Positions 1,879 through 62,203 of a stretch of DNA of 64,000 bases are shown here, piece after piece; position 1 is the first letter of the stretch, and each line of letters begins with the position of its first letter. The stretch lies in contig RWJK01001498.1 in NCBI GenBank assembly GCA_004335835.1, positions 44,859 through 108,858 on the forward strand. Reading direction: 5' to 3'. The position numbers were made by a program, and so were the translations under genes. This DNA comes from Scenedesmus sp. ARA3 (lineage: Eukaryota > Chlorophyta > Chlorophyceae > Sphaeropleales > Scenedesmaceae). The notes below the pieces were generated by a model that was given only the letters and a program-made list of their open reading frames with translations, was not told the origin of the DNA and made no database searches.

Positions 1879-2545
1879 ACAGCTCCAATGCCTCGCCCTC
1901 CACCTCCTGCAGCTCCGCCTGCGACGCAAGGAACTTGTCTTGCAGCGACGCAGCCATTGCTGCGCTCGAGTAAAGTGATGCCACTTGCTCTGACCGTTAC
2001 TGACAGCTGTCACTTACAGCTCCATGGCCTCGCCCTCTGCCTCCTGCCGCTCCGCCTGTGCTGCCAGGAACTTCTCCCGCAGCGGCCCGCTCATCACGGT
2101 GCGCTTCAGAAAGCCGCAAAGCGCTGCGTGCTGTCAGTTCGAACTGTTACTTACAGCTCCATTGCCTCGCCCTCTGCCTCCTGCCGCTCTGCCTGTGCCG
2201 CCAGGAACTTCTCCCGCAGCGGTCCACTCATCATGGTGCGCTTCAGGAAGCCTCACAGCGCTGCGAGCTGTCAGTTTGAACTGTCACTTACAGCTCCATG
2301 GCCTCGCCCTCTGCCTCCTGCCGCTCCGCCTGTGCTGCCAGGAACTGCAGCGCTCCGGCCACTGCTGCGCTCCAGACAGCCCCCAAGCACTGCGACACGT
2401 TCGTTCTACAACTTCTGCTTACAGCTCCATCGCCTCGCCCTCTGCCTCCTGCCGCTCCGCCTGCGCAGCCAGGAACTTCTCCCGCAGCGGTCCGCTCATG
2501 ACTGTGCGCTTCAGGAAGCCTCACAGCGCTGCGAGCTGTCAGTTT
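1879..2545 (-). repeat. five tandem copies of the end of the CAND1 terminal exon
   Basis: Copies of the last 60-110 bases of CAND1 exon 25, including the stop codon context, start near 1879, 2011, 2149, 2285 and 2417. They lie about 130 bp apart, all on the coding strand of CAND1 and downstream of its real stop at 2556. Each reads as a degenerate version of the C-terminal KFLAAQAERQEAEGEAMEL segment, and four keep the CTGTAAGT sequence that contains both the stop and a TGTAA motif. Confidence 0.9.
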
Positions 2546-2555
2546 GAACTGTTAC

Positions 2556-5500
2556 TTACAGCTCCATTGCCTCGCCTTCTGCCTCCTGCCGCTCCGCCTG
2601 TGCCGCCAGGAACTTCTCCCGCAGCGGTCCGCTCATAACGGTGCGCTTCAGGAAGCCTGTGAAGGGGGCGCTGGCCTCACTGCCTGGCAGGCGGTTGAGC
2701 GCGTCCACGGCGCGCAGGCAGCTGCGCAGCAGCTCCTCGTGGCGGTCAACCTGCGCGGACCACATGTTTGACCAATTGACTTTGACAGACTTGAACCTGG
2801 GCTGCAAGAATAGTGCTGATGGTGAGTTGAGAAACAGATGACGCGTGTGCTGAGGATGCTGAGTTCAAGCAGGACTAGCAGCTGCAAAGTCTTGAGGCAA
2901 TGTTGTTGTCTTGTTGTTGTCATGCAGCAGGCGCCTGTGTGCATTCCTGCAGGCACCCGCTGCTCTGCTTGCAGCATCTGCACTGTATTGAAACACATCC
3001 GTCCCAGCAAGTCAAATCCACTTCTGCTGCAGCCGGTTGCCATGCAAGTCAACCAGCAGCTGCACCACAACCCGCCCTATCGCGGACACATCAAAACTTT
3101 CCGTTTACATCACAGTCATGCAACAAGTGTAATCAATGTGGCTGCCGCCGCACCTCCTGCTTGACTGCGTCGCTCTTGAGCTTTGCGGTGAGCGTCTTCT
3201 CAAGCGGCTCCACCAGCTTGTCCAGCTGGCTCAGCACAGCAGGGCCGCCGCCTGCAGCACAGTGCAGCAACGGTACAGCACAAGGATTTAAGTGATTGTG
3301 TTGGCCTCAAGGCTTGTGCGGCTGGCTCAGCACAGCAGGGCCGCCGCCTGCAGAGTGGGCAACAGCAGTGCAGCACACGAATGCAATGAACACAGTCACA
3401 TTGGCTGTCACGGTTTGCCCAGCTGGCTCAGCACAGCGGGGCCGCCACCTGTAGCATGAATATAACACGAATTATGACAAACAAGAAAGGCAATTTGATA
3501 TACTTGGAGGCTGTTGCCAGCCCGTTCAGCTGCTGCTGCTGCTTCTGCATGCCTGAGCATGACACAGGACACGCCAAAACTCAACAGCCACTGCAACAAC
3601 CACAACCTCAGGTTCACATATCCACCAGGTCTGACACGCTTCACGCACAACTATGCAGGCAGCTGCTCTTATCCAACCCCACCTGGGCTTGCTGCCAGCT
3701 TGACCAGCATCAGGTGTGCAGGCGCCTTCACATCCTGGTGGTCCTTCAGCCCACTCTCCAACGCTGCCAAAAAGTCCGGCTGCTGCTGCAGCACGTGTGG
3801 CAGCGCCGTGAGCAGGATGTCGAGGCACTCGAAGGCAGCCTTGCGCAGCTCCAGGCCGTCGTCGATGCGGTGCTTGAAGGGGCCCAGGTCAACCGTGCGG
3901 ATCTGCATGTTTGACCAGAGTTTGACCGGGTGAGGAAGGGGCAGGGAAAAAGAATGCAGGGCACATGGCAAGCCAGGTGCAGCATAGAAGCCAACCAACC
4001 AGCAGCAATTTGAGCTGATGACGGATTTCAGATGGACAGGCAGCAGCTGGCACACCACAGAGACAGTAGTTTCACCACGCACCATCTCTGGCTTGATTGC
4101 TGTCTGGTCGTACAGCAGAGGCAGCAGCTGCTCCAGCCCAGCAGCCACCAGGCCCGGCTTGTGGTGCACCACAGCAGACAGCGCCACCACTGCCGCCTTG
4201 CGCACGTGCCGGTCTGGGTCCTTCATCAGCATGAGGAAGTCCAGCAGGCAGTCCTGCAGGAGAAAAGTAACAGTGTTATAACACATTCAAACGCAGATCC
4301 AGGCACTTGTGATGTTATCATCTGTAAGCGGCATGGCAACACTGATGTTGATACCTGCATGTGGCATGACACACAGAAGCAGCGAGCACCTGTCCTGGTT
4401 GCAGCAAAACATGGTGGCACACATATGATGATGTGTTGCACTGCACTTTGTGCTGCACAGTTATTGCGCCTCACCTTGAGCAGGTCATCCACTGGGCGGC
4501 GCTTGTCCACCACTATGTACTTGACAGCACCAAACTAACGGTGCAGCTGCAAAAAAAGTAATCGCGGATGCAGGCGTCCCAATGTTCTGCACGCACCTTG
4601 AGCAGGTCATCCACTGGGTGTGGCTTGTCCACCACCATGTACTTGACAGCGCCAACCACCACGCAGCGCGTGTGCTCGCTGTCACTCGACAGCCCTGCAG
4701 CAGGCAGCGCAGCAAGCACGTACACGCAGTCAAGCGTCAAGCCGCAACAGCAGCACCCACGCAACGGCAGCTGTCTGTGCGGGCATGTGCGCAGGCATAA
4801 GAACATATCTGTCAGGCACAGCAGCACATACATACAACAGCAAGCGTCCACACATTGAATGGCAGCAGCAGCATACAACAGCGCGGCTCCACACCTGTGC
4901 GCAGCCGCGCCAGCACCTCTGAGGGGTGCAGCAGCGCCAGCCGCCCCAGGCACTCCGCCACCACGTTCCTGCACTCCTCCTCTGCCCTGCTGCAGGACAC
5001 CAGCAGGTCCAGCACCTGCTGCACTTGCGCTGCAGGAGAGCACAAAAGAGCAGCAACACAGCAGCAGCGAGCAGACATGAGCCAGACAGCATGTGATGTG
5101 TGCACCAACAGTTTTGAGACGCCTGCTGTGCATGCATGGCGTGGCTGCGAGGCAGCATGTGGCAGTTGACATGCAAGGAACAGCAGGCACACGACATGCA
5201 AGGAACAGCAGACACACAACAGGCATGTATTGCTATCCTGCTTGCATGCATTCATATGCAATCCCTTCGTCAACAACACACTACACGTACAAATAGATGA
5301 AAGCTACTGCCCCTCACACACCTTCTGTGAAGCCTGCCCGCGTGTCTGCTGCCTTGCGTGCACTGACGGTGGTCACCACCTCGTTCAGCGCCTGCAGGAA
5401 ACAGCAGCAGCCAAAGAGACAGCACGTGAGTCACAAGGGTCAAACATGATCACACCGCCCACGCCTATCTGAACGTCTGAACATACATGAAGCACTGCAG

Positions 5501-8500
5501 TGGCGGCACAAACGTGTAAAGGCAACATCCTGCCCAACATCAACAGTGCCCTGCTCTGTACATACAGGTGTAGTGGCCTGAATAGGTCGAAGTGGCGCAA
5601 TACTTGCAGCTGCCAGCCCCGCGCTGACCAGTCAACGCACCTGCAACAGCAGGTACTGCTGCTTGCTCTGCCCGCTAGCGCCCTCAATGCTCTGCAGCAG
5701 CGCCGGCAGGAAGCGCCCCAGGTTGCCACATGCCACGCCACCCAGAGCCAAGCTTGCTGCTGCTCTGATGTCCTCATTCTCAGAGCTGAGGGAGGCGTTG
5801 ACTGCTGACTCAACGTTAGGCGCTGATGAGAGGTCTGTGCGACGGCCGATCTCTCCTAGGCACAGCAGCGCTAGGCGCTGGGAGGCTGCAAGACAAGGCA
5901 CATCAGCAGGCAGACAGAGGGTAGGTTACTACATGCCAAAGCAACAGGCGGGCAGGTACACGAGTGGGTGTGCTGCAATCTATCCTTGGCACAGACAGCA
6001 GCAGAACCTCCGCCATACACACAGCAAACAGCAGCCACCTGTTCCTTCCATTGACTGCAGCTGCATGCATAGCCCACAACCACCACCAAATTCACCCACC
6101 TTGGTCTGCTGACTTGAGCATCTGCAGCAGCTGCTTCACGGTTGCATCCACCTGCGCCTGCCCAGCCGGCACCACCAGCACCGCACAGCACTGCGCCACG
6201 CTGTGCTGGGCCTGCCGTGCGCTGCCGTCTGTGCTGCCGCCGCCGTCCCGCCTGCCCCTGCCCTCATCGAGCAGTGCTGACAGTAGTGCTTCTGTCATGG
6301 CTGCTGGGGAGCCTGTTCCTGCAAGGGCCGGGAACAGCGCCTGCAGCTCCGCCAGCGCTGCACCCTGCACGCGTTACATGCAGCACAATAACGACGGTCA
6401 AACGACGGTCAAACGCGGTTGGTGGAAGAGTAAGAGAACGCTATACAGGTTGATTGGCATGGGCAAAACAAACATGCCATTGCTTTATTACAAAACTGCA
6501 TGCATTCAAATGGCACGTGCACAGAACCTGAGCTGCAGACTCGGGCAGCGCATCAACACTGCTCCAACCAACAGCATCCTCGCTTCACAAACTTGCATCC
6601 TTCACGCCTGCCACGCGACCATGCTGCCTCACCACATCAAAACTTGTCTCACCTGCAGCAGCGGGCTGCGCACCAGCACCAGCCCTGCCGGCAGCACCCG
6701 CTCCACTACACAGGTGCATACGCTCACATAATAGATCATGCTCAATGTAGCATCTGCAGACCGCTAGCGCACCAGCACTGCTCGCACAGAGTGCATTCTC
6801 GCCGCCTCAGATTTGCTTTTATCTGCACGCTTGCCAAACCATATCAGAACTTTTCTCACCTGCAGCAGCGGGCTGCGCACCAGCACCAGCCCAGCAGGCA
6901 GCACCCGCTCCCATACACAGGTGCATACGTTCACAAAATGGATCATGCCCTCATTGCAGCATCTGCAAATCGCCAGCGCATCAGCACTGCTCACACAGGG
7001 TGCATCCGTGTTGGCCTCAAAAATGCTTTCATCCCGCACGCCTGCACGCAACCACGCTGCCCCAACCAAACCCTAACATACATTTCACCCTCACCTGCAG
7101 CAGCGGGCTGCGCACCAGCACCAGCCCAGCAGGCAGCATCCGCACTGCTCCAACAAAGCACCAAGAGTACCAGCACGCCACCACGCTACCCCAGTATACA
7201 TAAGCCAGTCGCGCTCACCTGCAGCAGCGGGCTGCGCACCAGCACCAGGACAGCAGGCCGCACCCGCTCCACCACACAGGTGCATACGCTCACGAAATGG
7301 TTCATGCCCCCATGTACCATCTGCAGGTTGCCAGCGCATCAGCACTGCTCCCAAAGGCGGCCGCGTCAGGTTTGCTTTCGTTTTGCACGCTGCCCGCGCC
7401 AAACCATAACATATAATTTCTCACCTGCAGCAGCGGGCTGCGCACCAGCACCAGCCCAGCAGGCAGCACCCGCTCCACGACCTGCTGCGCCACTGCCGGC
7501 TGCTGCCGCAGCAGCGTCACCGCCAGCTTTAGGCTCAGCGCCGCAATCGACAGGTCAGCGTCACTGATGAGGCTTGATGACTCAGCCAGCAGCGCGCTGG
7601 TGCCTGCAGGATCCAGGGATGGGCCGTATTTGGCTACCAAGGCTTCTAAAGCTGCCAATGCTGCTTGGCGCAGCAGGCGGTTGGCCTTTCGCAGGAAGCT
7701 GGTGAGCTCAGCCTGTTGGTGAGATTGGTGAGGTATAATATGCGGCAAGCAAACGAGAGGGTGAGTGAAATGGTCCTGTGGAGTTGCAGGTGTGGCAAGC
7801 GGCATCACACGGTGCCTGCAAGGCAGCAAAAATGGCCAGTGATGTGGTGCAAGGGTTGATGAGCGCTGCTTGGGAGATTCCGGCTGTTCCCAGCACCCAC
7901 CCAGCACCGTGCAATTCTCTTGATATGCTGCCAGCTGTGATGCTGCACCACCAGGCTATCATTGAAGAGCTGTAGATGCATGGGACAAACAGCTTGAACT
8001 GTTGTTGTACAAACAAACAAGGTTGCAAGCAGGCACCAACTAACAATCACCGGCTCCAGTGCGCTGTCCAGCCCCAGCTCCAGCTGCAACTGCGTGCTCA
8101 ACTTCAAACCTGATCCACTCACAGCCTCACAAACTCCCTATCTTGTGGTGCCAGCTGCAGTACTGTGGCTGTGCCACCAGGCTGTTCCCAGCCTGTATGA
8201 ATGCAAAGTGTTGCGTTCGCTGTGTGAAACCAACTGTGAAGAAAGCCGCACTCACAATGACCGGCTCCAGTGCGCCGTCCAGCCCCAGCTCCAGCTGAGA
8301 CTGGGCCAGGATGGCAAAGCCCTTCACAGCGGGCAGCCGGGTGATCTCGTTGCGCAGCCGCTCCAACAGCAGCTTCAGCACACCAGGCACCTGCAGCAGA
8401 CGATGTGATGCTGAACATGAATCATGGTGGCGATAGTGGAGTGATATCATTGTCTGGGTCGCTGACAACCACTTGCTTGTTTGCAATTGTCGCTGACAAC

Positions 8501-11500
8501 CACTTGCTTGTTTACAATTGACAAGCAGCAGCTTCAGCATGCCAGCGACCTGCAGCACACGATGATTGTTAATTTGTGATGATGGTTACGAGGGTGATCT
8601 TGCTGCGCAGAAGCACCAGCAGCAGCTTCAGCACACCAGGCACTTGCTCCTCCTGTTGCGCTGACTCAGCCAACCCACCTCAGCTGACAGCAGGTCCCCG
8701 AAGGTTGCAACCACATGAGCCATGCACAGGATGGCACACTCCTTGACCTCCCGATCTTGTCTGCACGCTCAAGCCCCTAACTAAATGTAATGTATGCTGC
8801 CTTGACACGCACCTCAGCTGACAGCAGGTCCCCGCAGGCTGCCACCAAATGGGACATGCACAAAATAGCACACTCCGTGACCGCCTGGTTCTCTCTGCAC
8901 ATTCGAGCCCATGCCTAACTATGAAGCATGCCGGCTCAGCCAACCCACCTCAGCTGACAGCAGGTCCCCGCAAGTTGCCACCAAATGGGCCATGCACAGG
9001 ATTGCACAATCCTTGACCTCCTGGCCTTCTCTGCCGCCTCGAGCCCAGAATATAGCTACAAATGAAGAATGCTGCCTCAGCCAACGCACCTCAGCTGACA
9101 GCAGGTCCCCGCAGGTTGCCACCAGATGAGCCATGCACAAAATTGCACACTCCTTGACCTCCTGGTCCTGGTCCTGTGCTGCCAGCCGCCCATTGATGCA
9201 GGAGAACATGCCAGCCACAACAGGCGCCAGCTCGGGGGCTGTTGGGGCGGCCGGGTTGGGCCGGATGACTGACACCATCTGCTCACACACCCGCAGCGCC
9301 TCGGCGGCGACCTGCAAACATGTACAGACATGTACACATGATTTCAGCTCACGCGCAGCTGCGCTGTTTAAGCTTCAATAGGGTGAGTGTTGAACAGTGC
9401 TCTGACAAAAAGGGTGCCGAGGACGCGCTTCAACACACCTATCCAGTTCTTATGTGAGGCACTGCTAAACAGCGCAACCAATCCACCTTGTAGTAGCGCT
9501 CCCCCACTGCCGCAAGCATGTAAATCATTCAGTAACTGACACGGTAGCACACGTTATTCTATGTCCCGGCAGCTGTACAAGCGCTGCTGTGTGCAGGCGC
9601 CTACCTTGTAGTAGCGCTCCCTCACTGCCGCAAACACGCCGCTGCGCAGCTGTACTTGCACCAGCTGTCAGGCGCTGCAGCAGGTGTGTGCAGCCTCGCT
9701 CAAACCCTCAACCCTTACCTTGTAGTAGCGCTCCCCGACTGCCGCAAACACGCCGCTGCTGAGCTGTGCAACGTGCTGCTGGAACACTGGGGGCGCGTTG
9801 CTCTCCATGGCAGCCCGCAGGAATGTGAGCGCCTCGATTTTGAGGCTGCTGCTGCTGGCTGACTTGTCCTTGCAGGCCAGCAGGATGCCTGCGGCAGAGA
9901 ATGTAGGGACAGCAACCATGCGCGGCAGTGTTGCAGCGGGAAACAGAGTCAAACATAACCTCTACAGCAGCTTAGAGGCTGCTGCTGCTGGCCGACTTGT
10001 CCTTGCAGGCCAGCAGGATGCCTGCAAGAGAAGAAAGTAGGGACAGCAGCCACGCGCAACAGCATTTTGATGGGAAGCACAACGAAACAGAATGGCATGA
10101 ATGGCATTGAAGCACCATACTATTCATGCTGTAACGTTGCTCCAGCCTACAGACGCAGCCGTGCGGAATGCCAGCACTGGATACACTTTTAGAATTTATG
10201 TTTCAAGAGGACATACAGCCAGTGATATCAGGCAACTGCTGGTTCACCAAGCTTAATGAATGCTGCAGTCCTCCCTCCCCAAGAGCAAGTGCAGCATGTA
10301 CTTGGAGGCGCAAATTGCAGTCAGTTGAGTCAGCAACTACTCGCATTGCGAGTTGTGGCCGGCTCAGCGACTGCAAACGGTGCCTCCCAAGTACATGCTG
10401 CCCTTGCTCTCCCATAAACACCGCTTAGTTCACTGCTATCCCAATATCGTATTGACGATTGTTGTACACACCTGGCACCAGCATGCCCACATGGTCGGGC
10501 ACACTGCCTGTATGGCACACTCCTCCTGCAACTTTGTAATCAACAGTAACATGAAACTAACACCCACCTGGCACCAGCATGCCCACATGGTCGGCCACAC
10601 TACCCGGCAGCAACCCAACCAGTGAGCGCAACACGGTGGACATGCCCATGCGCGGAAGGACGAATGGACATAAGTACCATGGTAGACATCACCAAGATGA
10701 CATAACAAGATGACAGCGTCATCAAACCCGTACTCACTTGCAACACCTTAACAATGACAAGATGGCATTATTGTCTCATCCACAGGATCCTGTGGATGAA
10801 ACAATGATGCCTCCTTGTCTTTGATGAGCTGCCGCAATATAGTATGGGCTTGATGACGCTGATCATGTTGGTCATACAGCCACCCTACCTGGCACCAGAG
10901 CATGCCCACAGTCACATTGCCCGGCAGCACCCAACCAGCGTGCCAGCACCGTAAACATGCCCATGCGCAATTCGAAAACAGAATAAGGTAGCATGGCAAT
11001 GATGGCCAAGATGACACACCAAGATGACCAGGGTGGTTGTATGACCAAAATAACCAGCGTCATCAACCCCATACTCACTTGCAACACCTCATCGTAACAA
11101 GATGACACAATGACGCCATTGTCGCACCTAGTTATTGATCAAGTGTCACAAGTCAGTAAGGGCTTGACGGCGCTGGTTACCTTGGTCATACCACCACCCT
11201 ACCTGGCACCAGAGCATGCCCGCATGGACGGCCACACCTGGAAGCACGCCACCGGCGTGCACACAGCACAGTGCCCATTGAAGTCCGCTTCCACACAAGA
11301 TCAACAACAACAATCGACACGATGAATGCGCGGCACCCACCTGGCACCAGCAAGCCCACGTGGTCGGCCACACTGCCTGGCAGTACACCAACCAGTGTGC
11401 GCAGCACGGTGAACATGCCCATGCGCGTCTTGAAGATTCAAAAACAACAACCATGCATCGAGCATCCACGCTGCATGGATGCTGCAGCTTTGTGTGAAAT

Positions 11501-13742: not shown

Positions 13743-13774
<32 letters not shown>

Positions 13775-17516: not shown

Positions 17517-17972
17517 TTTGAGGAGCCGATTGGTGTCTGTGCTACGCCTGGCTGTTCCCTTTCAGCACATGAATTCGCCCGAGGCCCAGTCTCTGGCCTC
17601 TGTCGGGCTCAGCTGCCACAAGTTCGTCTCAGACGTCTTTGAAACGTCACAACTGTCTTTAAAGTGTGGCAAAAAACGTTGATCCTGTCCTGTATTTGAA
17701 TTAGCGAGCGTACGCAAGAGCACGGACGCGCTCAATTGATCACAAACCTAATGGATGTCTTTCCCACTGCCTTCAAACCCCTTGATTCTCTTCAATGAGC
17801 GTCGCCAAGGCATCGGGTAGGCATTCGCGGCACTTCGACACCTCAAACCCTTGCGCAACAGGCAACGCAACATTGCTATAAATAAAATTCTTACTTCCTT
17901 TGATGGTTTTGTCCCTGGTCCGACGCAGCTGTACAGTACTGCTCTTGGCCCCACCTGGTCACTAGTAGTGGC
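17517..17972. promoter_or_regulatory. divergent promoter region between CAND1 and RbcX
   Basis: The CAND1 start (17516, minus) and the inferred RbcX start (17973, plus) are separated by 456 bp with no conserved coding frame. The spacer must contain both promoters or a shared one. The only clear core element seen is a plus-strand TATA-like sequence at 17877-17886. Confidence 0.55.
17877..17886 (+). promoter_or_regulatory. TATA box-like element upstream of RbcX
   Basis: TATAAATAAA lies 87 bp upstream of the inferred RbcX ATG, in the correct orientation. It supports the chosen start, but is a short motif and has no other support. Confidence 0.5.
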
Positions 17973-29693: not shown

Positions 29694-29729
<36 letters not shown>

Positions 29730-39690: not shown

Positions 39691-39723
<33 letters not shown>

Positions 39724-48826: not shown

Positions 48827-48858
<32 letters not shown>

Positions 48859-50071
48859 TCAAGGAGGCTCCCAGGGCTCCCTCGCCTCCGCCAGCCCCCA
48901 AGGTGGAGGTGGGCCAGTCCATGATCGGTGGGGAGGTCAAGCGCGACCCCCTCAACCTCATCAAGGTGCGTCGGTGCAGCAGCAGCAGCAGCAGCAGACG
49001 TTTGGTAGCATATGATTGTATGTTGTGTACTTCAGCTTGTTGCAACGGCACATACCTTCCGCAATGAAACTGGCTGCACACCATGCCTCTGTCTGCTGGT
49101 GTTGCTTAGGCCGCATGTCTTCCTGCCAGCTCCTCATTCCTTTTACTGAAAATTAACACCATAATCTCAATCCTGCAGAAGAGCGAGGCGCAGGACCTGT
49201 CCCAGGACAAGCGCTCCTGCCAGCCGCCGCTGCATGTCATTTTGCTGTCTTCTCAATGTTCTTGGTGTTTGTCCCATATTGCCACCTTGCAGAAGAGCGA
49301 GGCGCCTGACCTGTCCCAGGACAAGCGAACCTGGCAGGAGAAGCCGCTGCATGCCATTTCGCTGTCTATTCACTGGTTTGGTGTTTGTACCTTGTTTACT
49401 CCTTGCAGAAGAGCGAGGCGCCCGACCTGTCCCAGGACAAGCGCTCCCGCCAGGAGAAGCCGCTGGACTTCCTGGTGCAGCAGGCGGCAGTGGACCCAGC
49501 CACAAAGTGGCGCCGCGTGTACCAGCTGGGCAGGTGCGGTGCAAGCAAGGAACAAATCCTCGTTGCTTTGTGTGTGTTTAACATGTCTCTTTCAAGGTAC
49601 ATCACAGGAATGTGCGTGTGTATGCGTGCATGTGTCGATGCGTGAACGGCCTGCAGGGCATTATTGTGACGTGCCAAGCCTGCATGTGCAGCAGTGCCTT
49701 TCACAGCGCTCTGCCACTGAAGCTTGCTGTGCTGCTGCCCGCCGCTGTGCCGTGCCGTGCTCTGTATCAACCCCCTGCAGCAAGAGCGAGCTGTTTGCTG
49801 TGGTGAAGCAGCCTCAGGGCCTTGAGGGGCCCACACACATCAGCCTGGTCACTGACAATGCCAACCAGCTGGTGCTGCACTGGGGAGTCAGCAAAGCAGG
49901 TGCGGCCGCTGCTGCTGCTGCTGCTGCTGGTGTTGCCGTGTCTGTCTTGCTGAGGGTGTGGCCACATGCGGGCAGTTGCGATGGCACAACAAGCAGCAAC
50001 TTTAGCTTCCAAACCTGCCCCCTGCTCACTCATATTTGCATGCACATACATTCTCTGTTACTCTTTCCTTG

Positions 50072-50109
<38 letters not shown>

Positions 50110-52290: not shown

Positions 52291-52322
<32 letters not shown>

Positions 52323-55300
52323 CCCGCCTTGCAGCTTCCGCAACGACCTGCAGCGCACCATCGCCGACAATGAGGTCAACACCTACCACTGGACGCTCAT
52401 GCACCGCTACCACAAGGCGGCAGACATCATCAACGAGGTGCGCTGCTGCTGCTGCTGCTGTTGTGGGTGTATGGTGCCCATGTTATGCTGTCGTGCGGGG
52501 GCTGCGTGGTCGGGGGTTGGATAGAGACGAGCCTCAAGGTTGCAGCTGATGCAGCGCGACCGTCATGTTGATGTGCATCAGGCAGCCAGGCAGTGCAGTC
52601 TGCTGCATTCAGCAAGTGGCTTGCCATTCGCACCAGTAGTGTAGACAGAACAGCATGTGGTAGGGGCAGGCACAGCCTCGACTGCAGTGCCGTGGCAGGG
52701 AAACCTGCAGGCGCCGCGAGAGCAGCAGCGACGGCCGCCGCTGGCCGGTGAAGAGCGAGCGCTGCAGTGCTGGCATCAACAGCTGCAGTGGAGTGCAGCC
52801 CTATTAGCTCAGTTGGTTAGAGCGTGGTGCTAATAACGCCAAGGTCATCCGTTGAGCCGGGTATGGGGCATTGTCCACTTTTTGCCACGTGCTGTGCAGC
52901 AGGGTGTGTGACACTGCTGCTGCTGCTGCTGCTGCTGCCAGGTGGTTGATGGCTTCTTTGAGGTGGACACTGCTGAGGCCATGGGCGACATCTACGTGTG
53001 GCTGCGCTACTCAGCCAGCCGCCAGCTGACCTGGCAGCGCAACTACAACACGCAGCCACGCATCCTGTCGGCAGCACAGGTGCGAGCTACTGTGTTACTT
53101 CTAGATGTTACTTTTTGTGTTGGGCGGCTGCGACAGCTGCGGCGGTTGCATAGCGGCTGCTGCATTCAGTTGGGTGCTGGTGCTGTGCTCCACCACTGCT
53201 GCCTCCAATGCGATGCAAACAATGCGCCTGCAAGTGCATCAGCGATTAACAACATCTCCCAGCTGTCAGCAGCCGGATGTCTGCAACTGCATCTCTCTGT
53301 TGACACCAGATGCAAGTCGCCGCCTAGCGTATTGTGCCCTGCGCAGCCCCTGCTGCCACTGCACTGCTCCGCCCCTCCCCGCTGCGCTCCACATTCCCTG
53401 TCCATCAACCATTGCAAATGCAAATGCAAATGCGACACACATTTTTCCTCTGCCAAACAAACCATCCTCCACATGCGCAGGAGCGGCTGACGCACACCAT
53501 CGCCAAGGCGCACTCCAAGACCACCGGGGAAGCGCAGGAGTGGGTGCGGCTCATGCTGTCGTGCGTGGGGCGCGGCGGCGACGGCCAGCGCATCCGCGAT
53601 GAGATCCTGCACATTATGCACAGGTGCGGGGTGCAACATAACCCTTAGTCGCAGTGCTTTGTACAAAAACTGTTTCGGGGCAGATGGCCAGCGCATCCGC
53701 GATGAGATCCTGCACATTATGCACAGGTGCGCGGCGGAGAAGTGAAAATGCAGGAAGTGCAGGATTGGATACTGTTGGTCAGTGTGTCATGGCGGCCAGC
53801 ACATGTGCGGCGAGATGCTGCACTTCATGCATGGGTGCGAGAGGAAACGCGGTGCAGCCGCGTCTGTAGTACTAGGTGCTGCAGCTGCTGCATGCTTTAA
53901 TTGGGCGGCGCATCATGCACGCAGTGCCTTCTGTTGCTGTGTGGATACCCGGGGCTCAACGAGCATTGCGGAAAGTGCATGATACCTGATCATTGGTCAG
54001 CATCTTGTTGACGTCTGCAGCATTGCCTGCATGCTCACTGCTGCTGCTGCTGCTGCTGCAGGAACCACATCCCCGAGAAGAAGGGCACCTGGATGGAGGA
54101 GTGGCACCAGAAGCTGCACAACAACACCACACCCGATGACGTGCCCATCTGCTCCGCATACCTGGCCTTCCTGGAGGTGCGCTGAGGCACTGCTGTTGCC
54201 GGGGTGCCCACTTGTGGGGTTGGTCTCAGTGTGTGGTTGTTAGTGGATGCTGCGTCTTTCAATGTGGGGGGGAGGGTGGTCTGCTGCAGCGGCTGCCCAT
54301 CTGCTCCGCATACCTGGCCTTCCTGGAGGTGCGCTGAGGCACTGCTGCCGTGGCTGTGTGTCCGCATGCGGGGGTGTTGTCTCTGTTTCAATCAACTTTT
54401 GTGTGAATGCTGTGCCCTTCTTTTGTGGAGGATGTCAGGGCCTTGCTGTTCGTGTTGCGACGTCTTTATCGTGCGGTTGTTGTGCATGTAGTGCTGCAGC
54501 GGCAGCCCATCTGCTCCACATACCTGGCCTTCCTGGAGATGCGTTGAGGCACGGCTGCTGTTGATTATGGTAAGATCCTCATACGTTCCTGCATCCACCT
54601 TATTGCAGGCCAACGGCGACCGCGGCGCATACTGGCGCGTGCTGAGTGACGCTGGCATCAGCCGGCAGCGCCTGGAGAGCTTCGACCGGCCCATTGTGTG
54701 TGAGCCGGAGTGGTTTGGCAGCGGCAAGAAGGACGCGCTCATCAGGGAGTTCAGGAACTACCTGGGCATCCTCAAGGCGGTGCACTCAGGTGGGATGTTA
54801 CGATGGTTGTTGATTGTACTGAGCTTTTGTTGCAATGGCACATGGTTCTGTCCTGTTGCAGCAGCTTCCCCATTCGAGAGTCAGGAACCACCTGGGCATC
54901 CTCAAGGGGATGCACTCAGGTGGGGCTGCTGTTTGGTTTGCTGGCTGAGGTGGTTTGATCTTTATGGCGCATGCTGGTGTCCTGTTACAATAGAAGAGCT
55001 CGTATCTGTCTGGCTAAACCGTGTGCGCAACTCAGGCAAGAACGGAGCAGCTGTGGCATTGCTTGTGCTATTCAGCTATGCCACCCTCCCTCTGATCACA
55101 GAACGTGTTGACCCCTTTCCTCGCTGTATACCGCTGCGGCCACATCTGCACCTGCACCTGGACACATTCTCTTCCATCATGCAGGCGCCGACCTGCAGGC
55201 CAGCGCAGCCAATGTGGGCAACAGCTTTCCCGGTGGTGCCCGTGGCTACCTGGGCTATGTGACCAGCCACATCAACAGCCCGCACACTCACTCCGCTCAC

Positions 55301-58300
55301 ACGTTTCTCCTGCCTCTCTCTGTCTGCTGCTGCACCTTTCCACCATGCAGGCGCCGACCTGCAGGCCAGCGCAGCCAATGTGGGCAACAGTCTGCCCGGT
55401 GGTGCGCGCGGCTACCTGGGCTATGTGACCAGCCACATCAACAGCCCGCAGATCCTGCCCTTCCTGGAGGCTGCTGTTGAGGCCCGCACAGAGATTAGCC
55501 AGAGCCTTGTGGGCAACAGGGACCTGCTGTACCTGGATGTGGCGCTGGAGAACAGCATTCGCGGAGCAGCGGAGCGCGGCGTGGGCAGCGCAGGTGGGCG
55601 CGCCGTTTGAAGTGTGGTTTTATCAATGCTATTGTTGATGGTTATGTTATGTGCATGGTGGGCAACAGGGACCTGCTGTACCTCGATGTGGCGCTTGAGA
55701 ACAGCATTCGAGGAGCAGGGGAGCGCGGCTTGGGCAGCGCAGGTGCGCTGTAGTTCACCTTGCATGCTGATGTTATGTTGAATATATTCTGGTGGGCAAC
55801 AGGGACCTGCTGTACCTTGATGTGGCGCTGGAGAACAGCATCAGAGGAGCAGCAGAGCGCGGCGTGGGCAGCGCAGGTGCGCTGTACTTCACCTTGTATG
55901 CTGTTTTTATGTTGGTTTGTATAACCATGTTATATTCTGGTGGGCAACTGGGACCTGCTGTGACTTGATGTGGCGCTGGAGAACAGCATCCGGGGAGCAG
56001 CGGAGCGCGGCCTTGGCAGCGCAGGTGCGGAGCTTGTGTGTTTACAGCTGTGATGCTATACAGTGCATCATATGTGCCGTGCATCGGTATCGCTGCTTGT
56101 TGAGCAGCGAGCTTACTTTTCAGGCAGTAACTGCCGACAACTTGAAAGCTGGCTTTTTAACCAACACAATACTGCCATGTGTTGCCGCTGTGCTGCAGGC
56201 TTTGGCGCTGCCGCCTTCATGGCGCCGCTGCTGCAGAACCTGTGCCTGAGCAAGGGAGACAACGAGGAGGCCTGCTACTGCCTCAAGGTGCGGGGCTGCA
56301 GGCAGCAGCTAAAATATAGTTGATGCTTGTCTAATGTCTATATACAGCTTTGTGCTTGTGGCATGTACAGCAGCTTCCTGGCCTCCGCAGCTCATGTCTA
56401 TGTACAGCTTATGTGCTTGCAGCATGTACAGCAGAGTCTGAGGGAGTACTTGCTCCTGCTGTGTGAGGCAAGCTCAGGCATATAGCATCGTTACCTCGCA
56501 TACACCCTTCAGCGTACAATCGAGGAAGTGTTGCTTTGGCGCTCATACACAAACCGCCATTGCCAACCGCAGGCCTGGACCAGCCTGCCAGGCAGTGTAC
56601 GCAGCGGCGGCCGCCCCAGCCGTGAGGAGGCGCTGCAGGCGGTGGCGGTGCTCAACAGGGTGCGGCGGCTGCTCAGCGAGACCTCAGGTACGGGGGCAGG
56701 GCTGCATTGCTGCTGCTGCTGTTGTTGCTGTTGCTACCGCTATTGGACTGCATGGCTGCTGTGCCTGGTGCTGCTGCTGTGCCTGGTGCTGCTGCTGTGC
56801 CTGGTGCTGGCAGCAGTGGATCTGGTACGTGGTCTGGTAGTCGTTCAACAGCTATACACATGCTGCCTGCTGCTGCTGCTGCTGTTATCTGTGCTGCTGC
56901 CCCTACACGCAGATCACATCGTGAACACGATTGGCGCCTTCTCAACCGCGCTGGGCACTGCTGCTAAGTGCGACCCCTGGGCCGTGGAGATTTTTGCTGA
57001 GGAGGTGGTGCGTGGCGGCCCTGCCTTCGCGGTCAGCCTGGTCATCAGCGCCATTGAGCCCACACTGCGGCAGCTGGCAGAGCTTGGCGCGTGGCAGGTG
57101 CGCAGAGTGAACAGCGGTGTTGTGGCAGCGCTGTACGCCAGGGTCAGCATTAGCAAGGGCGGGCTTGTTGAAGCTGTGGCTGTAGTTGAGGACGCGGCTG
57201 TTGTTTCGATGGAGTAGCAAGGGTTTGAAGATCTTTGCTGAGGAGGTGGTGCGGGGGGGCCCTGCCTTTGCGGTCAGCCTGGTCATCAGCGCGATTGAAC
57301 CCACACTGAGGCAGCTGGTGGAGCTTGGTGCATGGCAGGTGCGTTGCGACAGAGTTGAAACTGGTTTTCGCAGTTGCTGCTGTAGTAGTTGAGGGTTTGT
57401 AGGTGCTTTTTATAAGCAGCATGGAAGGGCACTGTGCAGTCCATTTAATTGCAGATGGTTTGTCCTGCCGCTGCTGCTGCTGCTGCTGCTGCCAGGTGAT
57501 CAGCCCTCACGAGGTGATGGGTCTGGTGGAGGTGGTGGAGCACCTGAGCACTGTGCAGGACAAGGTCTACGAGGAGCCCACAGTGCTGGTGGTGCACAAC
57601 GTGACAGGTGAGCTGCTGTTCACAGCGGGGCTCTGACTGCGCAGCTTGCTGCACGACACTTGTGTTTGCGCACTGTGGCTTGTGGTTCGGCTTAGGAGCC
57701 CTTGGTTTGCTGCACAGCATGTGCAGCTACAATGTGTTAACACCAACTGTAACTGCGTTGTCGGCCGACTGCGGTTAGGCAAAGAGAGCAGCTCCCGCAT
57801 GCTGGACCTGATTGTCCCTGAACAGCATGTACACACCTGTACTATGCCCTTGGCACCTTCAACCTGTGATGTACAGTAAGTCATTTCTGACTCGAACCTT
57901 ATTTGTCTTTCTCTTCCCGCCAGGCGAGGAGGAGATCCCTGAGGGCGTGGTGGGCCTGCTCACCCCCGATGCCCCGGACGTGCTGAGCCACGTGAGCGTG
58001 CGCGCGCGCAACATGCACGTGCTGTTCGCCACCTGCCACGACGAGGAGCCGCTGAAGCAGATCAAGGACGCCGCAGGACAGTGAGTCATGCGGCTGTGTG
58101 GCGCATGCGGCTGTTCAAACTTCAGTTAGCAACTTAGATCATGATGAGGAGCCGCTGAAGCAGATCAAGGACGCCGCGGGACAGTGAGTGCACGCGGCTG
58201 CTGCTGTGTTGCGGCTGTTCGCGGCGGTGTACATCGCCTTTGCGGCACAGCACAAACGGTCCTGTTGCGTGCAGCTGTGTTTATGGCGGGGTTATGGCGG

Positions 58301-61300
58301 GATTCTGGTTTGGGGTTATGACGGACTGCAGACTGATGCACACAGCGGGGGTCTGGTGTGTGAACATCCTGCCTGCCTGCCTGCTTGCTTGCTTGCGTGC
58401 TGAACAAGCCACTGCTGTGCCGTGCTGCTTGCAGGTACCTGCGCTTCAAGCCCACTGCTGCTGGTGCGGTGACGTGGGTGTCACCCAGTCTGCAGTCAAT
58501 TGATGCGTTCACGGGCGGCATCCTGTCGGGCGAGAGCCAGCAGGGCCTCAACCAGGTGGGTGTTGTTTCGGCGTGATTTGCACAACTAGGCTTCCCTGAA
58601 TCTGCGTATTGACTTTGAAACAACTGTGCTGGTTGCTGGCAGTATGGAGTGCAAACAAGGTCACACGGATGTGATTGCTAGCAGCAGCTGATAGAATGCT
58701 GCTTAACTGCCTGGCGGCCCGCTGCCGTCTGCTGTGCTGCACTGCACGTGTCCTCTTGCAGGTGCTCAACCTCACCATCAACATCCCCAGCTAACCATCA
58801 ACATCGTCACTGTGTAGCTGATGAGCCGCTGCCGACAGTTCTGCCTCCATCTTGCCTCGCATTTTCTGCGCTGTGCTGTGCTGTGCTGCACTGCTTCCTC
58901 TGCAGGTGCTCAACCTGACCATTGACATCCCCAGCTGGTGCGGCAAGTGGGTGCTGCCCATGAACGAATTTAAGGACGGCGTGGTCGGCGCCAAGTCCAA
59001 GAACATCGCCAACCTGCGCGGCAAGATACCAGACTGGATCAGGCTGCCGGCTGCAGTCACGGTGCCCTTCAGCAGCTTCGAGCAGGTGCGGCAATCTGCG
59101 GCAGTAGCAGGCCCCTGCGTGTTTCAATAATTGCGAAAGACACGCTGTTGAGCTGTCGGGTCGGTGTTGCGGCCGGGATGAGGTCTGCTGGCACACGATT
59201 TGCTCTCATCCCAACGCTGAATTCTGTCTTTGCCTGCCACATATGCCATGGGATTCGCCCTTTTGATGCAGGCGCTGGAGCTTCAGGAGAACCACGGCGT
59301 GCGCGACCAGCTGCGCGGCCTGGTGCAGCAGCTCAAGCAGCTGCCGCGCAACGTGCCGGCGCCCATGCAGCTGCCTGGCGCAGCCGGCAACGGGCGCAGC
59401 GGCAACGGTCACCAGCCTGAGGGCCCGCAGGCGCTGCTGGCGCGCTGCAGGGAGCTGGCGATGCAGGTCCAGGTGCGTTGGCGGCAGCAGGATTTGTACA
59501 CAGTGCCGCTTGCGGGACACATATCATGCAAGCTGTACATGCTGTGTCTTGCTGTTAACAGGAAGTTGTCAGAGTTTTTTTTAGCATGTGAAGCAGATGG
59601 AGGCAGTCGAACGAAGTGCTGTGTATCACCTGCCCAGTGTCTCGTTCTGATCATGTGCCTCGTCCCTGTGGCTGTGGTATGGATTCGCCGCCCTTGCACA
59701 ATAGAAGCAGACTATGACACCTATCTGAACAACTGAAGCAGAGTATGACACCTTGCTTTTGCCCTGCATGCAGGTGCCTGGGGAGCTGCGGCAGCAGCTG
59801 GCAGCCGCCCTGAAAGAAAGCGGCATCCCAGTGCCCGAGAACGAGCAGCGCTGGAGCATGGCCATTGAGGCGCTGAGGGGCGTGTGGGCCAGCAAGTACA
59901 ATGACAGGGCCTTCTACAGCCTGCGCAAGTGCGGCATTGATGCGGACGATGTGCGCATGGCGGTGTGCGTGATGCGCGTGGTGCCTGCGCGCTACGCGTT
60001 TGTGATCCACACCAAGAACCCCAGCAACAACGACGCCAACGAGGTGCGGCGCGAGGATGCTGCTGCACAGGATGGAGGCAGCTGCAGCAGTCGATTATGC
60101 GTCTCCTGCTGTTGTTATGCTAAACTGCCATGCCAGGTCTCCTGTAAGTGTTTGGCCTGCTGCTGCCTGTCCCCGCCTTGCGCTGTTGCTCTCTCTTGTC
60201 GCAATTTGACAAACCCTCTCCTGCCGCGTCACTACACCTCCGATCCCGCCTCTATCACTGCCTGCAGGTGTTCTGTGAGCTGGTCAAGGGCCTGGGCGAG
60301 AGCCTGGTCTTGTGCAAGTGTAGCCCCTCACAACTGCTGCGCTGCCGCCTGTCTCCGTGCCTGCAGGTGTTCTGCGAGCTGGTGAAGGGCCTGGGCGAGA
60401 GCCTGGTCTTGTGCAAGTGTGGCCCCTTACGACTGTTCTGCCACCGCCTTTCGCCCTCTGGCTGTTGTTGGCAGGTGTTCTGTGAGCTGGTGAAGGGCCT
60501 GGGCGAGAGCCTGGTGTCGGGCATGGTGCCGGGCAGCAGCATCGCGTTTGCGGCGCGCAAGGACAACCTGGAGCACCCGGAGACGCTCAGCTACGCGAGC
60601 AAGAGCGAGGGCATGTTTGTGCGAGAGAGCCTCATCTTCAGGTGCGGCCGGGGAGCCAGCAAATTGTGTGGCTGCGGCAGCAGGCCTTTGGTCTGCATGC
60701 GCCATGCAGGCGTTGCTCCTTGTACGATGCTGCTGCTGGCAGCAGCCACGAGCAGCGCGAGCTGCCATCATGCGTTGCATTTGCCATCTGACAATCACCT
60801 AGCGCTTCACCTCGGCACAACCCTCACTGTCACGCATGCCTGCACCTGCGTGCAAGGTCTGACAGAGATGCTGAGGAGGGCTACAATCACATGCACACAA
60901 AGCAAAAGCATGTTTTGCAAGCTTCAACCTTTGTTTTGCATTTGTCCCCTTGCAGGTCTGACAGCAACGGCGAGGACCTGGAGGGCTATGCGGGTGCGGG
61001 CCTGTACGAGTCCATCACCATGGACGAGACGCAGCTGGTGCGCGTTGACTACAATGACGACCCCATCACCAAGGATCCCAACTTCAGGCGCAAGGTGAGA
61101 GGTGTGACATGTTATGTAACATGGCAGGTAACATCTTGAGTGACAGGTTGTGTCGGTTGTCATGTTCTTTGCTTTGTTGGTCAGGGGTGTAACTGCGATG
61201 CAGCGACGACCCCATCACCAACGACCCCAACTTCAGGCTCAATGTGGGAGGTGTAACATGTTATGTAACATGGGAGGTAACATCTTCGGTGACATGTTGT

Positions 61301-61831
61301 GTGGCGTGTTGCACTGCGGCTCTGGTGGTCGAGGACGTTGCTGGGATGCAGCGGGGACCCCATCACCAAGGACCCCAACTTCAGGCGCAAGGTGAGGGAT
61401 GTGACATGTTACGTAACATGGTATGTGACAGTGTGTACGGCGTGTTTTGTGTTGGGTTGTAAGATGTCTCTGGGGATGCCTCCATGGTCCTATCACCAAA
61501 GCACCGCAAATACAGGCGCAGGGTGAGGCTTGTCATGTCATTCAACATGTTACTGGAAGCGGCACTGCATTGCGCTGCAAGAGCAGGGCATGATAGAGGA
61601 CGTGCGGAGGCTAGGCATCCCAGCACTTTGCAATGCACACAAGCTGCCACCAAACTGACGTCTGCCCCCACACTGCTGCTGCTGCTGCTGCTGTTGCTGC
61701 TGCAGGTGATGAGCGACATCTGCAAGGTGGGTGCCGCCATTGAGGCTGCGCTGGGCAGTGCGCAGGACATTGAGGGAGTGGTGGACCCAGAGGGCAACGT
61801 GTACGTGGTGCAGACGCGCCCCCAGGTGTAA
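44716..61831 (+). CDS. GWD1: alpha-glucan water dikinase (starch phosphorylation)
   Basis: Plastid enzyme that uses ATP to phosphorylate C6 of starch glucosyl units, opening granules for degradation. About 30 exons, all in phase from 44716: 44716-44837, 45333-45523, 45920-46006, 46611-46841, 47659-47770, 48093-48203, 48439-48624, 48858-48965, 49409-49533, 49781-49899, 50114-50330, 50746-50847, 52335-52437, 52942-53079, 53481-53623, 54062-54176, 54609-54789, 55351-55593, 56199-56287, 56573-56687, 56913-57097, 57496-57607, 57924-58080, 58435-58555, 58906-59085, 59272-59472, 59774-60043, 60475-60641, 60956-61094, 61706-61831; about 1,500 residues. Two CBM45-like starch-binding regions lie near the N-terminus (LLLHWGVEGG, LVLHWGVSKA). 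The phosphohistidine domain has LTPDAPDVLSHVSVRARN, with the catalytic His codon at 57989-57991. The C-terminal ATP-binding part has RSDSNGEDLEGYAGAGLYES and ends VYVVQTRPQV. The leader is Ala/Ser/Arg-rich, as in a transit peptide; the first exon with the ATG is unresolved. PPDK and PWD are excluded by overall match. Confidence 0.95.
46095..46145 (+). repeat. one copy of the end of GWD exon 3
   Basis: Repeats the DDATNTW junction and GTGGGT donor; the real donor is at 46007, about 135 bp upstream. Confidence 0.9.
46487..46545 (+). repeat. one diverged copy of the start of GWD exon 4
   Basis: The acceptor is followed by YNHRLGFNFIV, a diverged copy of YDHLGSNFAV at the real start, 46611. Confidence 0.75.
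46927..47592 (+). repeat. six copies of the end of GWD exon 4
   Basis: Copies of the LEYEAAVAEMSGLLAAGR junction end near 46976, 47107, 47236, 47365 and 47489, with a sixth partial copy at 47563-47592. Period is about 125-130 bp. The first five keep an AGGTGCG or AGGCGCG junction (the fifth has GC in place of GT). The real donor is at 46842. Confidence 0.95.
47853..47892 (+). repeat. one copy of the end of GWD exon 5
   Basis: Repeats MLGLSALDLSMQ with a GTGGG donor; the real junction (MLGLSALDSIMQ) is at 47770. Confidence 0.92.
48349..48400 (+). repeat. one copy of the start of GWD exon 7
   Basis: GAGARKKIEAKLR after a CAACAG acceptor copies the exon 7 start at 48439 (GADFGAGARKEIEAKLR), with an internal deletion. 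Confidence 0.88.
49180..49350 (+). repeat. two copies of the start of GWD exon 9
   Basis: Acceptors at 49180 and 49294 are followed by KSEAQDLSQDKRS and KSEAPDLSQDKRTWQEKPL. The complete exon starts at 49409. Period is about 115 bp. Confidence 0.95.
51174..51247 (+). tRNA. tRNA-Val (anticodon CAC), copy 1
   Basis: A 74-base cloverleaf: acceptor GCAACCA/TGGTTGC, D-arm with GTAGTCGGTTAT, anticodon stem TGTGC/GCACA around CTCACAC (anticodon CAC), T-arm CCCAG TTCGATC CTGGG, discriminator A. It lies in GWD intron 12, sense orientation. Confidence 0.95.
51848..51921 (+). tRNA. tRNA-Val (anticodon CAC), copy 2
   Basis: Identical in sequence to the tRNA at 51174-51247 and 674 bp downstream in the same GWD intron. 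The flanks of the two genes are not obviously similar, so only the tRNA itself is duplicated or conserved. Confidence 0.95.
51970..52043 (+). repeat. tandem repeat of about 35-38 bp, two copies
   Basis: The block starting CTGCTGAGGGTGGCTGCTGC and ending GTGTGGC occurs twice in a row with a TGCA spacer, in GWD intron 12. It shows no exon similarity. Confidence 0.85.
52226..52262 (+). repeat. one copy of the start of GWD exon 13
   Basis: The acceptor and SFRNDLQRT copy the exon 13 start at 52335; the unit is 106 bp and contains CTG repeats. Confidence 0.93.
52798..52870 (+). tRNA. tRNA-Ile (anticodon AAT), probably a pseudogene
   Basis: Acceptor GCCCTAT/ATGGGGC, D-arm GCTCAGTTGGTTAGAGC and anticodon arm TGGTG CTAATAA CGCCA (anticodon AAT) are intact. 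The T-loop reads TTGAGC, one base short: the expected C of the TTC motif is missing. Length is 73. The loss affects the B-box promoter and tertiary folding. It lies in GWD intron 13. Confidence 0.75.
53675..53837 (+). repeat. two copies of the end of GWD exon 15
   Basis: 53683-53727 repeats DGQRIRDEILHIMHR and its GTGCG donor almost base for base. 53795-53837 is a diverged copy (CGEMLHFMHG). The real donor is at 53624. Confidence 0.93.
54292..54542 (+). repeat. two copies of the end of GWD exon 16
   Basis: 54294-54329 and 54506-54539 repeat PICSAYLAFLE and PICSTYLAFLE. The first keeps GTGCG; the second has AT in place of the donor GT. The real donor is at 54177. Confidence 0.95.
54884..54922 (+). 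repeat. one copy of the end of GWD exon 17
   Basis: Repeats RNHLGILKGMHSG with GTGGG donor; the real junction (RNYLGILKAVHSG) is at 54789. Confidence 0.93.
55184..55290 (+). repeat. one long copy of the start of GWD exon 18
   Basis: Acceptor plus about 100 bases reading GADLQASAANVGNSFPGGAR, then GYLGYVTSHINSP, copy the start of the real exon 167 bp downstream at 55351. Confidence 0.96.
55660..56025 (+). repeat. three copies of the end of GWD exon 18
   Basis: Copies ending at about 55741, 55876 and 56024 repeat GNRDLLYLDVALENSIRGA and ERGVGSAG with GTGCG donors. Period is about 135-148 bp. Exon 18 is flanked by partial copies on both sides. Confidence 0.95.
57223..57338 (+). repeat. one long copy of the end of GWD exon 21
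   Basis: About 115 bases repeat KIFAEEVVRGGPAFAVSLVI through ELGAWQ with a GTGCG donor; the real donor is at 57098. Divergence is low. Confidence 0.96.
58141..58186 (+). repeat. one copy of the end of GWD exon 23
   Basis: Repeats DEEPLKQIKDAAGQ with its GTGAG donor, about 105 bp downstream of the original at 58080. Confidence 0.95.
58760..58800 (+). repeat. one copy of the start of GWD exon 25
   Basis: The acceptor and VLNLTINIPS copy the exon 25 start at 58906, followed by a stop. Confidence 0.93.
60268..60422 (+). repeat. two copies of the start of GWD exon 28
   Basis: Acceptors before 60268 and 60367 are followed by VFCELVKGLGESLVLCKC; the complete exon starts at 60475. Period is about 100-108 bp. 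Confidence 0.96.
61205..61525 (+). repeat. three copies of the end of GWD exon 29
   Basis: Copies ending near 61243, 61391 and 61521 repeat DDPITKDPNFRRK with progressively altered sequence. The following intron words (GTGACATG, ATGTTATGTAACATGG) are copied too, so the unit of about 130-150 bp includes intron. Confidence 0.93.
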
Positions 61832-61904
61832 GGCAGTTTTGGTGTAGTTGGCTTGCTGTACTGCTGCGGCTGCTGCTGCTTCTGCTGGGGTGGCAGAAGT
61901 GCTG

Positions 61905-62203
61905 TGGAGTCCTGAGGGCAACGTGTACGTGGTGCAGACGCGCCCGCAGGTGTAAGCCTGACCGCTTATCATGGCATTAGCCACAAGCACGCTGTGCAGC
62001 TGCTGCTGCTGGGGTGCTGAGGGAGTGGTGGTGGACCCCCAGGGCAACGTGTACGTGGTGCAGACGCGCTTCCAGGTGTAAAGCGCGTGTGGTGAAGTTA
62101 GGGAGGCATGCATTGCTGTGGCTGCTGCTGATGAGGTTGCAGGGGTGCTGTGGAGTCCTGAGGCCCACCTCTGCGTGCTGCAGACGCGCCCGCAGGTGTA
62201 GGG
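61905..62203 (+). repeat. three copies of the GWD terminal exon end
   Basis: Copies near 61905-61955, 62023-62081 and 62150-62200 repeat PEGNVYVVQTRPQV and the following stop (GTGTAA, GTGTAA, GTGTAG), downstream of the real stop at 61829-61831. Period is about 120-128 bp. Confidence 0.93.

Follow-up and report, generated by a model that had tools for sequence, protein, structure and literature searches.

Why should so many introns of a green alga carry copies of the very exon edges that border them? The question is raised by the window analysed here, a 64 kb stretch of DNA (GC content 57%) from contig RWJK01001498.1 of Scenedesmus sp. ARA3, whose parent assembly comprises 87.3 Mb in 1567 contigs. 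An earlier note on this DNA had reported that tandem copies of exon-intron junctions pervade the introns of several genes, including CAND1, eIF3b, and GWD, and a self-comparison of the window and exact gene models both show such exon-edge copies to be real. The pattern is dense and apparently undescribed within the open-licence literature, in which no description of pervasive exon-edge arrays was found (subscription papers lay outside the search). Draft proteins translated from predicted exons matched those of Tetradesmus obliquus at 97% (eIF3b), 95% (CAND1), and 99% (GWD), with 92% for CAND1 against the higher-scoring T. obliquus model P0121; judging from these matches, the host alga is T. 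obliquus or a very close relative.

Exon-edge arrays within and beyond the window

Exons were fixed by spliced alignment of the T. obliquus proteins P0001 (eIF3b), P0241 (GWD), and P0122 (CAND1) to the window DNA. Once four zero-length artefact exons had been dropped, 15, 32, and 25 exons were obtained respectively, one of the CAND1 exons being itself a decoy, as the surplus copies are called hereafter. The resulting 69 introns include one that exists only via this 42-nt decoy exon of P0122, leaving 68 without it, and the search for copies within introns was set without a lower limit on the distance to the first copy. Exons outside these three genes are predictions from a gene finder retrained on the aligned exons, which recovered at least one end of 69 of the 72 exons; 11 of its 79 predictions in gene regions were false. 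The calls of RbcX, a tubulin, and an alpha/beta hydrolase are all supported by Pfam matches between the modelled genes.

Self-comparison of the window yielded 152 repeat pairs, of which 89 were kept after filtering for length and complexity; 86 of these were direct and less than 3 kb apart, three were inverted, and none lay farther apart. Copies of a flanking exon edge were held by 35 of the 69 introns of eIF3b, GWD, and CAND1 (34 of 68 when the decoy-exon intron is excluded), on the donor side in 24, the acceptor side in 17, and both sides in six. They amount to 75 direct copies (50 donor-side and 25 acceptor-side), beyond which eight more follow two stop codons, in CAND1 and GWD. Matches to the own intron were found for 41 of 138 exon edges, as opposed to 1/138 for the reverse complement of the edge, 0/96 for the intron on the wrong side (exons of at least 110 bp), and 13/9384 in tests of exon edges against other introns. 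The copies are thus oriented with the host gene and adjacent to the exon copied, as had been claimed. The dimensions given previously also stood up well: an exon portion put at 30-110 bases measured 22-113 bp in 40 arrays, a unit put at 100-200 bp corresponds to a first copy at 92-253 bp (92-170 bp in 35 of the 40), and the estimate of about 50 arrays compares with 47 clusters in the window with an offset below 450 bp. Complete exons are not duplicated, the copies being half-exons with one splice site and no mini-exons having been found.

The arrays extend beyond the window, at least one exon-end cluster being present in nine of 16 stretches sampled outside it (15 on other contigs and one on the same contig; two were short, at 889 and 4798 bp). 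Near repeats occurred in ten of the 16, in one of these ten only at offsets above 800. The window and the 16 stretches together contained 90 clusters with an offset below 450 bp, 77 of which touched an exon end, whether modelled or predicted, and none of which lay wholly inside an exon. The remaining 13 touched no exon end and stayed in the count of 90; eight of them were inspected by eye, four resembling the edges of unpredicted exons (L012 2980, L018 9196, L020 1580, and L020 4880) and four appearing noncoding. In L023 (G000:C1287:95001-98000), a gene sharing a segment with GWD has an acceptor-side exon copy with a unit of 146; the common segment adjoins the donor in GWD, yet the copy on C1287 is acceptor-side. 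No exon copy was found in another relative, on C213. A different and larger type of repeat was seen in L016 (G000:C1000:20001-24798), where direct repeats lie 833-2728 bp apart with no predicted exon.

An assembly or haplotype artefact, for which the fragmentation into 1567 contigs might be cited, is very improbable. The T. obliquus CAND1 model P0121 contains a 47-residue insert made up of an in-frame intron piece and the first decoy of CAND1 intron 14, and 45 of these 47 residues equal those encoded at 8949-9089 of the window (21/21 in the intron part and 24/26 in the decoy), with the 141-nt unit preserved. P0122, for its part, annotates a 14-residue CAND1 decoy (13932-13973) as an exon. Since the CAND1 of the window differs from P0122 by six residues and a gap of one residue, and P0121 and P0122 are identical wherever they align, the models stem from another strain or assembly; two copies are therefore present in an independent T. 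obliquus source, which makes an artefact of this assembly unlikely. Private random amino acid changes and nonsense codons in the decoys, single arrays holding the real edge together with five differing copies, and a paralogous gene with a separate array at a junction of its own argue in the same direction. Both CAND1 inserts are absent from Scenedesmus sp. NREL 46B-D3 (P0123), and Scenedesmus sp. PABB004 (P0124) lacks the 14-residue insert, with nothing inserted at the other position. Decoys are likely to be a trap for gene prediction in T. obliquus, as the models P0121 and P0122 suggest.

Intron lengthening is commonly ascribed to transposons and small insertions. In eIF3b, GWD, and CAND1, arrays cover 9956 of 29662 intron bases (33.6%), so that a third of the intron sequence traces to exon-edge tandem-duplication arrays, with the protein unchanged. 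The proposal that arrays make introns grow is borne out by a mean intron length of 562 bp with arrays (n = 34) as against 310 bp without (n = 34), the former falling to 269 bp once the array span is subtracted. In a published survey, the mean intron of T. obliquus UTEX393 is given as 462 bp and those of four other green algae as 230-302 bp (PMC5966456), a difference that would fit the earlier suggestion of a lineage-specific process.

Origin and decay of the copies

Besides its exon portion, the unit in the 40 arrays comprises an intron portion of 44-201 bp (56-128 bp in 36 of them). Comparison of donor copies with their real counterparts gave an identity of 72-98% over the last 30 exon bases (at least 80% at all but one position), 96% at intron positions +1, +2, and +5, 86% at +3, 64% at +4, and 50% at +6 and +7, beyond which identity was mostly 24-46% (50% at one position), about 25% being seen between unrelated donors. 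In 26 of the 40 arrays, where about 6.7 were expected, the first spacer nonetheless had its best intron match no more than 25 bp from the tandem position, and in 29 the match was in register with any copy; all 23 spacer matches with p ≤0.01 were in register. Because spacer matches fall in tandem register, the copying took in the intron half of each unit as well, which then decayed, and flanks unrelated at birth are ruled out for 23-29 of the 40 arrays. Alignments of 12 arrays displayed intron halves that are similar but decayed, with many gaps; in the 28 pairs (of 123) whose intron halves were still clearly similar, these halves had 222 mismatches and 74 gaps over 1516 aligned bases, as compared with 105 mismatches and no gaps in their exon parts, a gap count biased low by the ungapped definition of those parts. 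The exon portion ends without splice signals: donor-side copies were directly preceded by AG in 4/74 cases (background 5.9%) and acceptor-side copies directly followed by GT in 0/52 (background 7.6%). Upstream of acceptors in the introns of the window, TGC/CTG runs (CTGCT, TGCTG, and GCTGC) are enriched at close range, as if forming a pyrimidine-rich tract; a search near acceptors for branch points, treating the units as mini-introns, gave no clear motif.

Once copied, the exon portions appear to have drifted. Between exons and copies in the three genes, 133 silent and 108 replacement differences were counted (copies with an ungapped exon part below 20 bp being left out, from 75 to 71), and 36 further arrays at predicted exons, with 55 copies, gave 139 silent, 104 replacement, and four nonsense differences, the silent-rich and splice-consensus pattern recurring there. 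Replacement changes in decoys matched a residue seen in orthologs (16-20 per site) in 22 of 110 cases, with 22.7% expected at random, and three of the 110 nonsynonymous changes were nonsense. The same test applied to real exons, comparing the strain with database proteins of T. obliquus, found the database residue among orthologs in nine of 12 cases and both residues in six of 12. As the ortholog match of decoys is at the random level, the copies evolve without protein constraint, the exon still changing at silent sites; they are unselected, neutral decoys, with a divergence of 0.052 per site. Selection on decoy protein sequence, suggested by the silent excess and the intact splice sites, is rejected by this ortholog test, and gene conversion of decoys by the exon would, by reasoning, give fewer silent differences rather than more. 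Retention of GT at 45/47 and of AG at 22/24 decoy splice sites would about match the prediction from decoy age. As neutral fossils of exon edges, the decoys are a source of neutral mutation spectra and offer a test of how the spliceosome ignores good sites near the real one.

It is on balance probable that the arrays reflect a recurrent tandem duplication of about 90-260 bp whose products survive if an exon edge is left intact. Such short duplications would keep arising across the genome, the lesion behind them possibly being, for example, staggered breaks that are filled in and then end-joined. A duplication spanning an exon edge would leave an intact edge joined to the exon, while the surplus copy would come to lie in the intron or 3' untranslated region (3'UTR), downstream of the real donor, upstream of the real acceptor, or downstream of the real stop codon. 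The real edge would stay under selection and the surplus copy, with its usable-looking splice site, would decay neutrally. Selection would presumably filter the duplications, those within exons being purged, and purely intronic ones may quickly escape recognition as drift and indels accumulate in both copies; the visible remainder would therefore consist mostly of exon-edge copies, and introns would lengthen stepwise. Selection together with the better visibility of coding sequence would account for much of the association with junctions.

The stop codons bear directly on this proposal. Two arrays copy no splice donor: at 1835-2658, counted earlier as a junction array, the coding end of CAND1 with its stop codon is repeated five times into the 3'UTR, the GTAAGT there overlapping the stop codon, and at 61771-62238 the coding end of GWD with its stop codon is repeated three times. 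As edges at stop codons are copied too, splicing is not what the process depends on, and these arrays favour a filter whereby duplications persist where an intact edge remains. No cluster was found after the coding end of eIF3b or at the three start codons of eIF3b, GWD, and CAND1; an upstream copied ATG would presumably be harmful. The earlier suggestion that some process re-copies junction segments is supported in part: the arrays are indeed pervasive, while any targeting of splice junctions would be hypothetical, the intron half and the stop-codon edges being duplicated too.

Several observations weigh against recurrent duplication with a filter. Copies identical to the edge at birth should give a ratio of replacement to silent change (dN/dS) of about 0.5; the pooled counts of 272 silent and 216 replacement differences over 6148 sites give about 0.3, counting per copy in the three genes (177 silent and 108 replacement) brings the ratio nearer 0.24, and single-copy arrays and positions alone show 62 silent and 47 replacement differences where about 44 silent were expected, a deviation of about two standard errors. 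The intron halves have diverged by more than twice the decoy divergence, the spacer has no register match in 11 of the 40 arrays, homology resumes past the end of the copy in just 6/124, and only ten gaps (nine frame-shifting) occur in the decoy exon parts of the 75 copies. Purely intronic tandem similarity exceeded all 40 shuffles in seven of 62 intron stretches (about 1.5 by chance), and a rough placement estimate predicts about 20 purely intronic duplications, a shortfall of about 4-fold; some preference of duplication for junctions may exist. Moreover, the duplication model does not account for the sharp lower size limit, the first copy lying no closer than 92 bp in any of the 40 arrays (with two of the 36 further arrays below it, at 51 and 83 bp).

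Some of these points would be expected if the copies were templated by a diverged allele or strain, a tentative alternative that we consider unlikely. A break in the intron would invade a diverged homologous chromosome, pairing only in the conserved exon, and the copied edge would be end-joined, so that divergence from the real edge, chiefly at silent sites and in the intron, would be present in the copy from the start. Growth would then be junction-biased, which is likewise doubtful, each event adding to the intron about 25-110 bp of exon edge and about 45-130 bp of intron sequence. The silent-site excess, the scarcity of purely intronic duplications, and intron halves that are unlike even beside an identical exon part (59/59 at eIF3b intron 11) are consistent with such copying, as is the absence of correlation between exon divergence and flank similarity (Spearman -0.10). 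Among the 14 donor copies that show no similarity in the flank, identity was 93-100% at positions +1, +2, +3, and +5 and 29-36% at +4 and +6, resembling pairs of unrelated working donors, a pattern that would also fit later replacement of the real edge by a diverged one; in GWD intron 6, copies 1 and 5 lie 2% apart, and what separates them from the exon is mainly silent change. If true, intron length would be tied to recombination between diverged alleles, and introns would keep a datable record of past alleles. Against it, replacement changes in decoys are random, and much of the divergence therefore arose after birth; the silent excess is just about 1.4-2-fold, which context-dependent mutability could explain; 23 of the 40 spacers still match in register; and no second haplotype was found in the assembly with two probes.

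Far less probable is that the decoys are functional, serving as alternative or recursive splice sites with each GT...AG unit removable as a small intron. The retained GT and AG dinucleotides, the first unit of at least 92 bp in the 40 arrays, the annotated use in P0121 and P0122, and the commoner TGCAG at decoy acceptors (21/24) than at real ones (40/69) would speak for such a role, but amino acid changes are unconstrained, GT retention is roughly what decoy age would predict, and among 24 first donor units only five have a length divisible by three. Recursive splicing, in which joined AG and GT serve stepwise removal, is disfavoured, as AGGT is no commoner at donor decoys (32/47) than at real donors (53/69) and only nine of 25 acceptor copies start with GT. 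Introner-like transposable elements have next to no likelihood; they would suit the many units of similar size inside introns, yet every unit derives from its own exon edge and distant parts of the window share no similarity after filtering, in agreement with the earlier exclusion of introners.

Catalogue of arrays

The arrays of the window are collected in Table 1. Two imperfect palindromes, about 80% self-complementary, lie in the long CAND1 intron 12 at 10282-10410 (129 bp) and 10706-10870 (165 bp); this intron also holds a donor-side array. In GWD intron 14, an 80-bp direct repeat that is not of the exon-edge type (51173-51252 and 51847-51925) is 98.8% identical with its copies 674 bp apart.

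Table 1. Exon-edge and stop-codon arrays in the window (unit lengths and copy distances in bp).
Feature	Position	Strand	Details
CAND1 coding end, stop codon, and 3'UTR	1835..2658	-	real edge and 5 copies, unit 131-137; stops TAA x5 (real included), TGA x1
CAND1 acceptor-side array	3216..3456	-	real exon start 3251; copies at 96, 197
CAND1 donor-side copy	4472..4655	-	unit 122
CAND1 donor-side array	6546..7476	-	exon end 7425; 4 copies
CAND1 donor-side copy	8039..8303	-	unit 211
CAND1 acceptor-side copy	8339..8647	-	unit 253
CAND1 donor-side array	8660..9170	-	exon end 9090; copies at 141, 277, 411; P0121 reads 141 copy as coding
CAND1 donor-side array	9485..9767	-	copies at 114, 232
CAND1 acceptor-side copy	9839..10057	-	unit 133
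CAND1 donor-side array in 1660-bp intron	10466..11640	-	exon end 11549; 5 copies
CAND1 acceptor-side array	12316..12841	-	4 copies, unit ~102
CAND1 acceptor-side array	13013..13320	-	copies at 114, 217
CAND1 decoy AAEGDEELREYALQ	13932..13973	-	42-nt exon in T. obliquus P0122 annotation
CAND1 acceptor-side copy	14103..14346	-	unit 116
CAND1 intron with copies on both sides	14715..15256	-	donor-side 108, 213; acceptor-side 121
RbcX acceptor-side array (predicted exon)	18733..19144	+	unit 179
RbcX acceptor-side array (predicted exon)	19410..20080	+	120-bp unit x5.4
Alpha/beta hydrolase exon-edge array (predicted exons)	22787..23101	-	unit 97
Exon-end array, predicted exon upstream of tubulin match	28152..28478	+	unit 146
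Tubulin-family gene donor-side array (predicted exon)	31215..31734	+	
eIF3b acceptor-side array	37951..38353	+	exon start 38304; copies at 128, 257
eIF3b donor-side copy	38833..39061	+	unit 127
eIF3b donor-side array	39264..39506	+	copies at 92, 194
eIF3b donor-side array	40639..41217	+	exon end 40683; 5 copies, unit ~103
eIF3b acceptor-side copy (intron 11)	41401..41591	+	unit 103; exon part 59/59 identical, intron part decayed
eIF3b donor-side copy	41642..41809	+	unit 118
eIF3b acceptor-side copy	42458..42744	+	unit 144
GWD donor-side array	46786..47594	+	exon end 46841; 5 copies and a partial one, unit ~129
GWD acceptor-side array	49174..49465	+	exon start 49409; copies at 116, 230
GWD donor-side copy	53580..53734	+	unit 103; weaker second copy at 211
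GWD donor-side array	54142..54561	+	exon end 54176; copies at 152, 362
GWD donor-side copy	54751..54924	+	unit 130
GWD acceptor-side copy	55172..55450	+	unit 166, exon part 100 bp
GWD donor-side array	55506..56029	+	exon end 55593; copies at 149, 283, 431
GWD donor-side copy	56985..57343	+	unit 241, exon part 113 bp
GWD donor-side copy	58037..58220	+	unit 103
GWD acceptor-side array	60229..60523	+	copies at 108, 207
GWD donor-side array	61056..61430	+	exon end 61094; copies at 149, 297; similarity of the intron part still evident
GWD coding end and stop codon	61771..62238	+	3 downstream copies, unit ~123; stops TAA (real), TAA, TAA, TAG

Comparison with known systems

Introner elements likewise add widespread intronic sequence in an alga, but similarity among elements of different introns is their mark, and here no element family or inter-intron similarity was found (no far repeat pairs, and only the 13/9384 matches given above). 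Tandem exon duplication, including mutually exclusive exons, also places repeated exon sequence inside an intron; there a complete exon with both splice sites is copied, whereas the first copy here ends 22-113 bp into the exon, leaving half-exons with one splice site and decaying coding sequence. Translated alternative exons would show purifying selection on the protein of the copy, in contrast to the 22/110 seen in the decoys, although some silent excess remains. Stwintrons share repeated or nested splice-site elements within an intron, but there is no sign here of a nested intron or of the decoys being required.

Small tandem duplications arising from staggered-break fill-in and end joining have been described in mouse and human cells (PMC8355091). 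They resemble the present arrays in being direct duplications with an end-joined junction, and differ in having been described at induced breaks in those cells, with no tie to exon edges.

Direct head-to-tail copies of a contiguous segment, which characterise tandem genomic duplication, are found here in the orientation, side, and spacer register of the copies. Potato reportedly offers a case of intron gain by this route. Tandem genomic duplication is a genuine route to new introns (PMC3443670), and the likeness lies in a short within-gene duplication of splice-site-like sequence after which, provided that splicing adapts, the coding sequence is unharmed. In that route the duplicated element is an exonic AGGT, the two copies of which bound former exon sequence as a new intron; here, in contrast, the copies lie inside existing introns or after stop codons, so that it is existing introns and 3'UTRs that lengthen, and copies are present in half of the introns examined.

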